Source: Winogradskyella sp. (GTDB lineage: Bacteria; Bacteroidota; Bacteroidia; Flavobacteriales; Flavobacteriaceae). Taken from it: a DNA stretch of 38,988 nucleotides. The stretch covers positions 1 to 38,988 of the forward strand of contig NZ_JABSST010000024.1 in the NCBI RefSeq assembly GCF_013213975.1. Direction: 5' to 3'. The notes under the pieces are model-generated. The model was given only the letters and a program-made list of their open reading frames with translations, did not search any database and was not told the DNA's origin. A program made the position numbers and the translations under genes. Of the stretch, positions 5,265 to 8,216 are shown piece by piece; position 1 is the stretch's first letter; the number at the start of each line of letters is the position of its first letter.

Positions 5265-5293
5265 TATTTATTGCAACTAAGTTGCAATAAATA
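5265..5293. promoter_or_regulatory. 29-bp perfect palindrome, probable Fur/Zur-family operator
   Basis: The left arm TATTTATTGCAACT (5265-5278) and the right arm AGTTGCAATAAATA (5280-5293) are exact reverse complements around a single A at 5279. A 1-bp centre with TTGCAAC half-sites is the geometry of Fur-superfamily (Fur, Zur, Mur) boxes. It overlaps the likely -33 region of the promoter before the DUF1826 and COG0523 genes, so a bound repressor would block RNA polymerase. Assignment to Zur rests on the known link of COG0523 chaperones to zinc limitation. The Bacteroidota Zur consensus was not checked. Confidence 0.7.
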
Positions 5294-5310
5294 TTAAATA
5301 ATTATCTTTG
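5282..5310 (+). promoter_or_regulatory. Promoter of the DUF1826-COG0523 pair (TTG-N18-TATCTTTG)
   Basis: TATCTTTG at 5303-5310 is an exact TAnnTTTG -7 box. TTG at 5282-5284, inside the right arm of the palindrome, sits 18 bp upstream and can serve as the -33 element. Transcription would start near 5316-5318, giving a leader of about 15 nt before ATG 5333. Confidence 0.65.
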
Positions 5311-5332: not shown

Positions 5333-5986
5333 ATGATCTCAAAGTTGAAATTAAGATCCGCTACAGCAACAAAGAATTGGTCGATAAGCTCCTCTTCTAA
5401 TGACCTAAAAAACATTTTCAAGAATGAAATTAATGTTGCAATTCAAAATAGAGATATTAGTCACTTAAGCAATGAAATTAACAACCTCCTAAAACTAGAT
5501 ATTAATATAAAATTAAAAGGAAATGCAAAAACTATCTTCAAAGAAATCAACAACTTAATTGATTCAGATGTTAATACGTTGGTCTTAAAGGATATTGAAT
5601 ACCTTCTACTGCTTTTTTCTGAGCTTACTAATTCTCAAGATTTACATCTGTATTTAGCCACTATTAACACAAATATGTGTCGAAGATTTCATGCGGATAA
5701 TAACGATTTAAGGTTATTATGCACCTATAGCGGACCTGGTACAATATGGCTTACTCAAAATAATATAAACTTAAAAGCTCTCAATTCTTATAAGAGTAAT
5801 GAATCAATTGTTATTGATAAAAGTAAAATTCAGCAAGCAAAAACTGGTTCTGTCGTAATACTTAAAGGATCTAAATTTCATAAAACGAGTAATAATGCCG
5901 CGGTGCACAAAAGTCCAAGTATCGAAAATTTAAATCAAAAGCGATTACTTTTAAGATTGGACACGGATAGATTTTTAAACTTTTAA
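5333..5986 (+). CDS. DUF1826 domain protein, partner of the downstream COG0523 GTPase
   Basis: 217 aa, no signal peptide or membrane segment, so cytoplasmic. The N-terminal half (1-110) is helical and weakly conserved in appearance. The C-terminal half carries the DUF1826 hallmark: CRRFH (116-120), RLLCTYSGPGTIWL (127-140), SVVILKG, VHKSP (191-195) and RLLLRLD (204-210). DUF1826 proteins are, from general knowledge, often neighbours of COG0523 metal chaperones and linked to zinc homeostasis. No activity is established to my knowledge. I note H120-x-D122, a distal H192 and R204 or R208, in the order used by Fe(II)/2-oxoglutarate oxygenases (inference). The gene sits directly behind the palindromic operator and 24 bp before the GTPase gene, so the two share one regulated transcript. 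It lies inside the repeat-bounded block. Confidence 0.8.
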   Translation: MISKLKLRSATATKNWSISSSSNDLKNIFKNEINVAIQNRDISHLSNEINNLLKLDINIKLKGNAKTIFKEINNLIDSDVNTLVLKDIEYLLLLFSELTNSQDLHLYLATINTNMCRRFHADNNDLRLLCTYSGPGTIWLTQNNINLKALNSYKSNESIVIDKSKIQQAKTGSVVILKGSKFHKTSNNAAVHKSPSIENLNQKRLLLRLDTDRFLNF

Positions 5987-6010: not shown

Positions 6011-7234
6011 ATGATTTCGAATGAAAAACTTCCTGTTACTGTATTAAGTGGTTTCCTAGGCGCAGGTAAAACAACTTTACTCAATCATATACTTCATAAT
6101 AAGGAAGGGTTAAAGGTAGCAGTTATTGTCAACGATATGAGCGAAGTAAATGTTGATGCCGAATTAGTTAAGAACGAAAATACACTTTCTAGAACAGAAG
6201 AGAAACTCGTAGAAATGAGTAATGGTTGTATTTGCTGTACATTGAGAGAAGATTTAATGGTAGAGGTTGAACGACTAGCTAAAGAAGCCCGATTTGATTA
6301 CTTGCTAATTGAGAGTACAGGAATTAGCGAGCCTGTCCCTGTTGCCCAAACATTCACTTTTATTGATGAAGATAACAATATTGATTTATCTAAATTCAGC
6401 TACATAGATACTATGGTAACGGTTGTAGACGCCTTTAATTTTTTTAATGATTTTGGAAGCCCAGAATTGCTGTTAGATCGAAAGCTTACCGATATGGAAG
6501 GAGACCACAGAACAATAGCTAACCTATTAACAGACCAGGTTGAGTTTGCCAATGTTATCGTTTTGAATAAAACAGATCTAGTCACTTCAGAACACCTAAG
6601 TAAATTAAAAGGTACTATATATACCTTAAATCCATCAGTACAAATAATAGAATCTAGTTTTAGCAAAGTAGCTCCTGAGAAAATCCTTAATACACGTCTT
6701 TTTAATTATGATGAGGCTGAAAAAAGCGCAGGTTGGATAGAGGAACTTAAAAAAGACGAACATACTCCAGAAACCGAAGAATATGGCATATCATCATTTG
6801 TATTTAAGTCTAAAAAACCATTTGATCCAGATCGCTTTTTAAACTTTAGTCGAGATTTTCCAAATTCAATTATTAGAAGTAAAGGTTTATTTTGGATGGC
6901 CTCAAGACCTGACCAAGCACTAATTTGGGGACAGGCAGGAGGTTCGCTTAATGCTAAACATGCTGGTGTCTGGTGGAGCAGTATGCCTCTAAAAAAGAGA
7001 ATGCAATTTGTGGCATTTGTTGAAAATCAGGATATCATAGAAGAAAACTGGTCCAAACCTTTTGGCGATAGAAAAAATGAAATTGTTTTTATAGGACAAG
7101 GTATGGATAAAGAGAAAATCGTTTTCGACCTTAACCGTTGTCTTTCAACAGATGAAGAACTTGCGACTTTGAAATGGAAATTAGGATATGAGGATGAATG
7201 GCTTTCTATTAATAGACCACCTAGTTCTTTTTAA
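6011..7234 (+). CDS. COG0523/CobW-family GTPase, putative zinc metallochaperone
   Basis: 407-aa G3E-family GTPase. GFLGAGKTT (14-22) is the P-loop. [10 protein letters not shown] (72-81) supplies the CxCC metal-binding motif that is characteristic of COG0523. ESTGISEP (101-108) is the switch II/Walker B-like region, VLNKTDL near 185 is the guanine-specificity NKxD, and the C-terminal CobW_C domain spans roughly 262-375. There is no long His-rich tail. The family couples GTP hydrolysis to metal delivery. Members next to Zur operators or DUF1826 (YeiR/ZigA/ZNG1-like) serve zinc allocation under starvation, while others act on cobalt or in nitrile hydratase maturation. Operator and partner favour zinc here. 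Confidence 0.92.
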
Positions 7235-7331: not shown

Positions 7332-8216
7332 TTAACCAGAATGTTTCTTCTCAGCATAATCATAACCCTGTTTCCACCATTTTACCATGAGACGCTTACT
7401 AAAGATTAATGAGTTTTCGGTAAGACTTATTGGCGTGTAGTAAAGGTTAAGTTTAACATTTTTATTTTTTGCAGCCAGCTTTCCAATGACAATATCGTTG
7501 CGTTCTACCTGGTCGAGTAAATGCCCAAATAAATTCATCATTAAAGAGAATGGATTCTTGCCAAGAACCCGTTGCTTTCCCATATTTTCAGCCTCTAGAA
7601 CAATAGCATCAACCTCAGTAGCACCACGTTCTATAGCTTCACGAATTGGAATAACACAACCTAAGCCTCCATCTGCATATTCATAACCATTCACTTTAGC
7701 TAAAGACATAAATGGTATATAATTACAGGATATCCAAATCCAATTGCAAAATTCTTCATACGTACAATCGTTAATTGACTTGTACTCTACCCGATTCATT
7801 GACAAATTAGAAACGGTAACAACCACATCATGTTTAGTGTGCTTGATCTTTTGATATTCTTCTCTTGTAAAATTTCGTTTTATATTTCGCTTTAAAGCCT
7901 TACTCTCACCAAAGGTGCGTTTCATTTTTATGAATTGCCATAAGGAATTCACAAAATCAATTGACACATATTCCCTATCCCCTTTTTTGCGCTGTACAAA
8001 GGGACTTACACTAAATATATCTTGTTGCTGCACATTAGTAAAAATATCATAAAGTTTAGGAATATCATTTACAGCCAATTGCGGCAATAACAAACTTCCG
8101 GTAGAGGTGCCCAAAAACATATCGTAGTTGCGCTGTTCGTTTTGCATAAGGTATTGTGCTACACCTCCTGCAAAGGCTCCTTTACTTCCTCCACCAGATA
8201 TAACTAGTGCTCGCAT
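7332..8216 (-). CDS. Patatin-like phospholipase family protein
   Basis: 294-aa predicted lipid acyl hydrolase with the patatin Ser-Asp dyad. The oxyanion loop GGGSKGAFAGG is at 8-18, the nucleophile elbow GTSTG at 36-40 gives Ser38, and ADGG gives Asp182. There is no signal peptide, so a cytoplasmic or membrane-peripheral enzyme is likely. The length is normal for a single-domain bacterial patatin. Its start codon overlaps the stop of the M1 peptidase gene by one base (TAATG arrangement), so translation of the two is probably coupled. The stop (TAA, 7334-7332) directly abuts the duplicated gene end, which fixes the right border of the inserted block. Substrate unknown. Confidence 0.92.
   Translation of the reverse strand: MRALVISGGGSKGAFAGGVAQYLMQNEQRNYDMFLGTSTGSLLLPQLAVNDIPKLYDIFTNVQQQDIFSVSPFVQRKKGDREYVSIDFVNSLWQFIKMKRTFGESKALKRNIKRNFTREEYQKIKHTKHDVVVTVSNLSMNRVEYKSINDCTYEEFCNWIWISCNYIPFMSLAKVNGYEYADGGLGCVIPIREAIERGATEVDAIVLEAENMGKQRVLGKNPFSLMMNLFGHLLDQVERNDIVIGKLAAKNKNVKLNLYYTPISLTENSLIFSKRLMVKWWKQGYDYAEKKHSG

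Follow-up and report, generated by a model that had tools for sequence, protein, structure and literature searches.

The 29-base palindrome at positions 5265-5293 of the window, i.e. of the 38,988-nucleotide stretch of Winogradskyella sp. DNA that was analysed, is very probably the operator of a Zur-like repressor of the Fur family encoded elsewhere in the same genome (C129), with zinc shortage predicted to lead to expression of the DUF1826-zigA operon downstream. As judged from sequence, we put the probability of this reading at roughly 0.86. Directly visible in the sequence are the site and how it recurs, the association with the regulator gene and with metal-type genes, and the overlap with predicted promoter elements. 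The features concerned are the following.

5265..5293, no strand: perfect 14-1-14 palindrome, predicted operator, TATTTATTGCAACT-A-AGTTGCAATAAATA, arms 100% complementary
5269-5289: core 21-mer of the palindrome, TATTGCAACTAAGTTGCAATA; matrix score of the window site 31.4/31.8
5282..5284, + strand: predicted -33 element, the TTG of the right half-site, with an 18-base spacer to the -7 box
5303..5310, + strand: predicted -7 element TATCTTTG (TAnnTTTG)
5333..5986, + strand: DUF1826 protein (PF08856), 217 aa, first gene of the operon
6011..7234, + strand: ZigA-type COG0523 (cobW) GTPase, putative zinc metallochaperone, 407 aa
C129:7731-8108, - strand: Zur-like Fur-family regulator gene (PF01475), candidate repressor

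The first-pass annotation of this DNA had reported a perfect 14-1-14 palindrome that exceeds chance and lies over the -33 region of a promoter, its coordinates 5265-5310 covering the palindrome plus the -7 box. All of this was borne out. The arms are fully complementary around a single base, and the palindrome is the longest perfect inverted repeat of the window (loops of 0-8 bases; the runner-up has arms of 11), whereas 20 order-1 random sequences of equal length had longest arms of 8 to 13 bases. The TTGCAAC-N3-GTTGCAA core overlaps the -33 TTG, which lies 18 bases ahead of TATCTTTG, a spacing that fits the -33/-7 promoter class of Bacteroidota, and 39 bases separate the palindrome from the DUF1826 start codon (5333). 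The exact copy of the core at 5271 is the sole one standing out in the window, in which the core pattern with three mismatches allowed is not enriched (6 matches versus 3.4 expected).

A palindrome of this kind could also act as RNA, i.e. as a hairpin terminating the upstream DUF7935 gene or as a leader structure, and the corresponding RNA does fold to -13.1 kcal/mol (z -5.2), as is expected of any such palindrome. That said, no T-run follows it and the terminator scan was silent on it; moreover, the palindrome lies upstream of the -7 box and therefore outside the leader made from the TATCTTTG promoter. In relatives, the box is found between divergent genes and at recurring distances before start codons, which also speaks against a hairpin. 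We rejected this explanation on the grounds of position, missing T-run and terminator scan, and give it almost no credence.

Downstream of the palindrome, the zigA-type gene begins 24 bases past the DUF1826 stop and is followed by a convergent gene. The top NCBIfam match of the COG0523 GTPase is ZigA (NF038288, 540 bits, E 2.8e-162). The equivalog cut-off of 600 bits is missed by this protein and is reached in none of the 148 genomes of the order sample, and for these two reasons we use the name 'ZigA-type'. Adjoining the operon is a gene for a patatin-like phospholipase (window 7332-8216, - strand) that has weak similarity to a CBASS lipase model (34.7 bits, cut-off 200).

If the palindrome is an operator, further sites would be expected near metal genes. 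The strict form, WWYGCAACNNNGTTGCRWW, has seven exact sites in the 3.13-Mb genome and 11 with at most one mismatch, compared with none for the reversed pattern. Looser scans also picked up the reversed pattern (165 matches versus 137 with three mismatches, which is uninformative; 99 versus 60 for the looser WWTGCAAYNNNRTTGCAWW with two mismatches), and therefore only strict matches were interpreted. Among the one-mismatch sites, those at C111 and C115 were dropped, since they fall within coding frames or at a frame's end; C90 (matrix score 21.9) and C143 (17.4) are possible further sites. The strict sites are as follows.

Window 5265-5293: ahead of the DUF1826-zigA operon
C117:6386: 15-base core ending 51 bases before the second ZigA-type gene
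C129:8157: in the interval separating the Fur-family gene from an ABC-transporter operon; a weaker copy lies beside it (C129:8120)
C129:11908: ahead of two genes, for a MerC-domain protein and for GTP cyclohydrolase I
C88:58824: before a cluster of HMA-domain, DUF6702 and HupE/UreJ-type genes, with a divergent prolyl-oligopeptidase-type gene 309 bases away
C88:24492: before the gene of a secreted trypsin-like protein that carries a type IX sorting tail, no clear metal role
C2:36313: before a choloylglycine-hydrolase-family protein, no clear metal role

Metal-type genes thus lie downstream of five of the seven strict sites, namely both zigA-type genes, the Zur-like Fur-family gene, MerC/folE and HMA/HupE. 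The forecast of further sites near metal genes, made when the palindrome was first noted, therefore held, with the second zigA-type gene, the regulator gene, MerC/FolE and HMA/HupE as the additional targets. The particular targets then named, znuABC-like, TonB receptor or ribosomal-protein paralogue genes, were not recovered. That is, none of the seven strict sites has a TonB receptor or ribosomal-protein gene downstream, and ZnuA (PF01297) has no match in this genome (97% complete), whereas the same search was positive in 11 of 14 control genomes; with no PF01297 match, no Zur box of the Desulfovibrio type was found ahead of a znuABC operon. Likewise, no site occurs at any of the three ZIP genes of the genome. 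Judged by box position, both here and in relatives, the genes behind the boxes form a predicted zinc-supply regulon.

Promoter elements accompany several of these boxes: TAnnTTTG or TAnnTTTA starts 17, 18 or 20 bases after the box TTG in the window, at C88:24492, at the C2 and C117 sites, and at the DUF1826 promoter of the relative G036. In gene direction, neither motif is present at C129:11908, at C129:8157 on the ABC-transporter side, or at C88:58824, and on the regulator-gene side of C129 the sequence TAAATTTG stands directly 3′ of the proximal box. Two further observations concern individual loci. The box before the trypsin-like gene sits in the middle of a much longer inverted repeat (C88:24478-24524, L005:3979-4025), whose arms span at least 22 bases on either side of a 3-base centre and which may also serve as a terminator. 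Moreover, folE (GTP cyclohydrolase I) occurs several times, in whole or in part (C115:11837, C129:12572, C83:37413 and C31:4701), of which the C129 copy lies in the regulator neighbourhood and keeps the CEHH motif and the later cysteine.

The genome encodes two Fur-family proteins, and the candidate repressor is that of C129. It carries the Fur-family domain (PF01475, 46.1 bits against a cut-off of 23.1), its AlphaFold model has a mean pLDDT of 84.2, and the 50 Foldseek rows listed look like Fur-family entries. In a single-sequence search of the PDB the top four matches were three distinct Zur proteins. With a 12-sequence profile Zur and Fur were mixed, a Fur structure coming second, and in Foldseek Zur, PerR, Fur and Mur were intermingled. 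The NCBIfam matches are weak and all far under cut-off (Fur 34.0 bits, PerR 33.1, Zur third with 28.3, cut-off 167). Since the subfamily is not clean by sequence, the assignment to Zur rests on ligands and regulon. The residues C87, C90, C121, C124, H56, H82 and H84 are invariant in all of the best 80 of 543 orthologues; 75 of these 80 have C70. H56 and C70 align with H77 and C88 of E. coli Zur, which we take to be ligands of the regulatory site, with C88 in a sensor role. Residue conservation thus points to a structural Cys4 site plus a regulatory site containing a cysteine, and a second site that includes a cysteine is described, in the text available of PMC5786701, as setting Zur apart from other Fur-family proteins. 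The Zur proteins of E. coli, Streptomyces and Mycobacterium (4mtd, 3mwm, 2o03) share with the C129 regulator the Fur-family fold, the Cys4 site and the aligned cysteine, at 19-23% identity in fold alignments; unlike these, the C129 protein has an extra CxxC...H stretch between the aligned cysteine and the HxHF motif. The second Fur-family protein, L020 (C100:10034-10393, 150 aa), is without the CxxC pair, and no TGCAAC box occurs in the 160 bases upstream of its gene.

The operator could belong to this same protein while the metal sensed is manganese, nickel, iron or a MerC-type substrate (mercury, cadmium). Neither NCBIfam nor the fold comparison singles out Zur, and MerC-domain genes, whose Pfam name refers to mercury resistance, are frequent neighbours (two Pfam-confirmed, others alike by eye; a crude motif finds them at 54 of the 80 loci that are the best of 543). 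Against this, C70 aligns with the E. coli cysteine, the consensus equals the box predicted for znuABC-zur in Desulfovibrio, and the ZigA-type/COG0523 and DUF1826 genes behind the boxes are both tied to Zur elsewhere, according to the portions at hand of PMC2770081 and PMC5786701. We therefore consider a metal other than zinc unlikely.

The regulator orthologues provide a larger sample of boxes. The set of 80, the best of 543 named, is drawn mostly from Flavobacteriales, but also from Saprospiraceae, Cytophagales and Balneolaceae, and holds MAGs labelled Melioribacteraceae, Kapaibacterium and Akkermansiaceae, labels that can be wrong. As the 80 are related, counts over them are not independent, and all counts in this paragraph refer to these best 80 of 543. 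Within 150 bp upstream of the regulator gene, TGCAAYNNNRTTGCA with at most two mismatches was found in 75 of the 80, as against none for the reversed pattern; the five without a box are L145, L154, L175, L181 and L211, the last with only 103 bases of upstream sequence. Two or more boxes are present in 60 of the 80, most commonly at distances of 13 and 51-52 bases from the gene; in most orthologues the centres of two boxes are about 38 bp apart. The 135 sites in these promoters give the consensus TGCAAC-N3-GTTGCA. Furthermore, 67 of the 80 have TAnnTTTG no more than 45 nt from the start codon, compared with 133 of 4000 random 45-base windows, and in 47 of the 80 the box stands between TTG and TAnnTTTG at promoter spacing. 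A matrix trained solely on the 135 sites ranked the window site first, with 31.4 of a possible 31.8; the second site in the window scored 7.5, and the best of 30 random sequences 15.6.

These data also bear on whether the palindrome is instead the target of some unrelated dimeric regulator, with the Fur-family gene linked to it by a coincidence of shared targets. Palindromes with short spacers are used by many regulator families, which would allow for this. The box is nevertheless at the regulator's own promoter in 75 of the best 80 of 543 orthologues, mostly at two fixed distances, and within the genus it is tied to the presence of the regulator, which makes such a coincidence very improbable. 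That is, the forward strict site is found in 22 of 68 genus genomes and the reversed pattern in none of the 68, and among the 37 genus genomes common to the site scan and the regulator search, strict sites were found in 11 of the 14 that have a close regulator orthologue (E<=1e-40) and in one of the 23 that lack one (Fisher p 4.6e-6). In 60 relatives, where 30 of 68 regulator matches were assessed and the forward pattern was counted alone, a site of the TTGCAAC form (at most three mismatches, within 250 bases) was found for 13 of 14 close and 11 of 16 distant matches. A one-mismatch scan of the same 60 relatives for the TTGCAAC form was noisy (matches in 33 genomes, reversed in 23), because the common form elsewhere is ATGCAAC...GTTGCAT; many of its matches lie inside coding frames, e.g. 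the 546-548-aa frames of L029, L034 and L041. A possible link to ZIP in L095 was dropped, since the site is inside a methyltransferase frame.

In relatives, too, zigA-type and MerC genes lie behind boxes. The DUF1826-zigA pair of G036 has a box with a matrix score of 31.8 located 61 bases upstream; weak DUF1826 matches in G040 and G053 (23 and 20 bits) are without a box. Of 22 rows of ZigA-type loci 21 were examined, two being from the genome studied here and two from G129. A box with at most two mismatches lies within 400 bp upstream at 13 of the 21, the reversed pattern at one of 21; for comparison, 158 of 2000 random 450-base windows from regulator loci meet the two-mismatch threshold, some of them true sites. 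Two further loci, that of the window and an operon with an LCIB-type carbonic anhydrase, have the box before the first gene of the operon, two of the 21 have only a symmetric three-mismatch variant, and the box is absent at four of the 21. None of nine other or fragmentary COG0523 loci has a box within 400 bp.

Other genes near boxes in relatives deserve mention in their own right. At G049:C1:2631943 (L102), a box precedes an LCIB/C-type carbonic anhydrase gene and then a ZigA-type gene, which suggests a zinc-stress carbonic anhydrase. Genes for small lipoproteins that contain histidines adjoin the box in L028 and L053 (DUF4625 by Pfam) and in L173, L179 and L193 (alike by eye), and are candidate surface zinc binders. 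A paralogous Fur-type regulator (L035, L036, L075, L079 and L080; MKRRN... N-terminus, about 30% identity) is preceded by TTGCAATGTTGTTGCAA, which closely resembles the box and recurs ahead of this paralogous gene in the group of distant regulator matches.

The half-site had at first been thought to differ from proteobacterial Zur boxes. This does not apply to all of them, since it equals a prediction of 2004: the window site, TTGCAACTAAGTTGCAA, matches ATGCAACNNNGTTGCAT, the ZUR box that the sections available of PMC545781 predict upstream of znuABC-zur for two Desulfovibrio genomes; this is the only paper found in the open-access literature that prints the gapped consensus. The box consensus is thus not new, and by its sequence the window site extends the Desulfovibrio Zur box to Bacteroidota. 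Both are the same 17-bp palindrome with an N3 centre, and in Desulfovibrio the operon, as there described, combines a Fur-family gene with zinc uptake genes; the box stands before znuABC-zur by prediction only, and the comparison made here is one of box and gene context. The Bacteroidota box, in contrast, precedes the regulator itself, zigA-type, DUF1826-zigA and MerC genes, in a genome where znuA was not found. Zur-regulated COG0523 (yciC/zigA) operons likewise have a COG0523 gene behind a Zur site (PMC2770081, as far as its available parts go), and DUF1826 appears there as an abbreviation in the legend of a gene-cluster figure. The COG0523 Zur sites of that paper, in the same parts, are mainly from Firmicutes and Proteobacteria, with some from Cyanobacteria, whereas the window site is from Bacteroidota; neither 'bacteroid' nor 'flavobacter' occurs in its main text. 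In Francisella novicida, the Zur regulon similarly includes a gene of each of the two kinds, COG0523 and DUF1826, a likeness in gene content, but the DUF1826 gene stands apart from the COG0523-zupT operon, unlike the pair in the window (PMC5786701, from the text at hand). The window operator also differs from the E. coli Zur motif quoted in the accessible text of PMC6103462. Among open-access papers selected by title, including PMC6613475, PMC9976891 and PMC11960050 in their accessible parts, none was found that defines a Zur operator for Bacteroidota; most subscription papers and RegPrecise lie outside this scope, and an earlier box may exist there.

Taken as an operator of the Zur type, as first proposed, the palindrome is well supported by sequence, i.e. 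by the sites at metal genes, the link to the regulator and the matrix score of 31.4/31.8. We infer that the repressor binds, that zinc is its signal and that transcription is repressed, and likewise what the target proteins do. A zinc-bound Zur dimer on TTGCAAC-N3-GTTGCAA over the -33 element would keep RNA polymerase off the DUF1826-zigA promoter; Zur boxes overlapping the -35 element are described as frequent in the portion seen of PMC6103462. When zinc is short, the repressor would be released and the operon expressed, and the ZigA-type GTPase may then help to bring zinc to client proteins. The C129 repressor would in addition control its own gene, in most orthologues via two boxes. As the site recurs across related bacteria, the switch appears real but of an ordinary kind.

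At somewhat less than even odds, we tentatively propose that TGCAAC-N3-GTTGCA could be the operator that Zur generally uses in Bacteroidota, in some neighbouring phyla and also in Desulfovibrio, that the Zur zinc-starvation set may do without ZnuABC, and that the small MerC-domain membrane proteins may be zinc importers beside the ZigA-type and DUF1826 proteins. This raises the question of why one operator would be common to Bacteroidota and Desulfovibrio. A reliable box would allow zinc regulons to be read straight from the genomes of a very common phylum. For genomes that lack znuA, it suggests MerC-domain, HMA/HupE-type and DUF1826 proteins as candidate contributors to the zinc supply.
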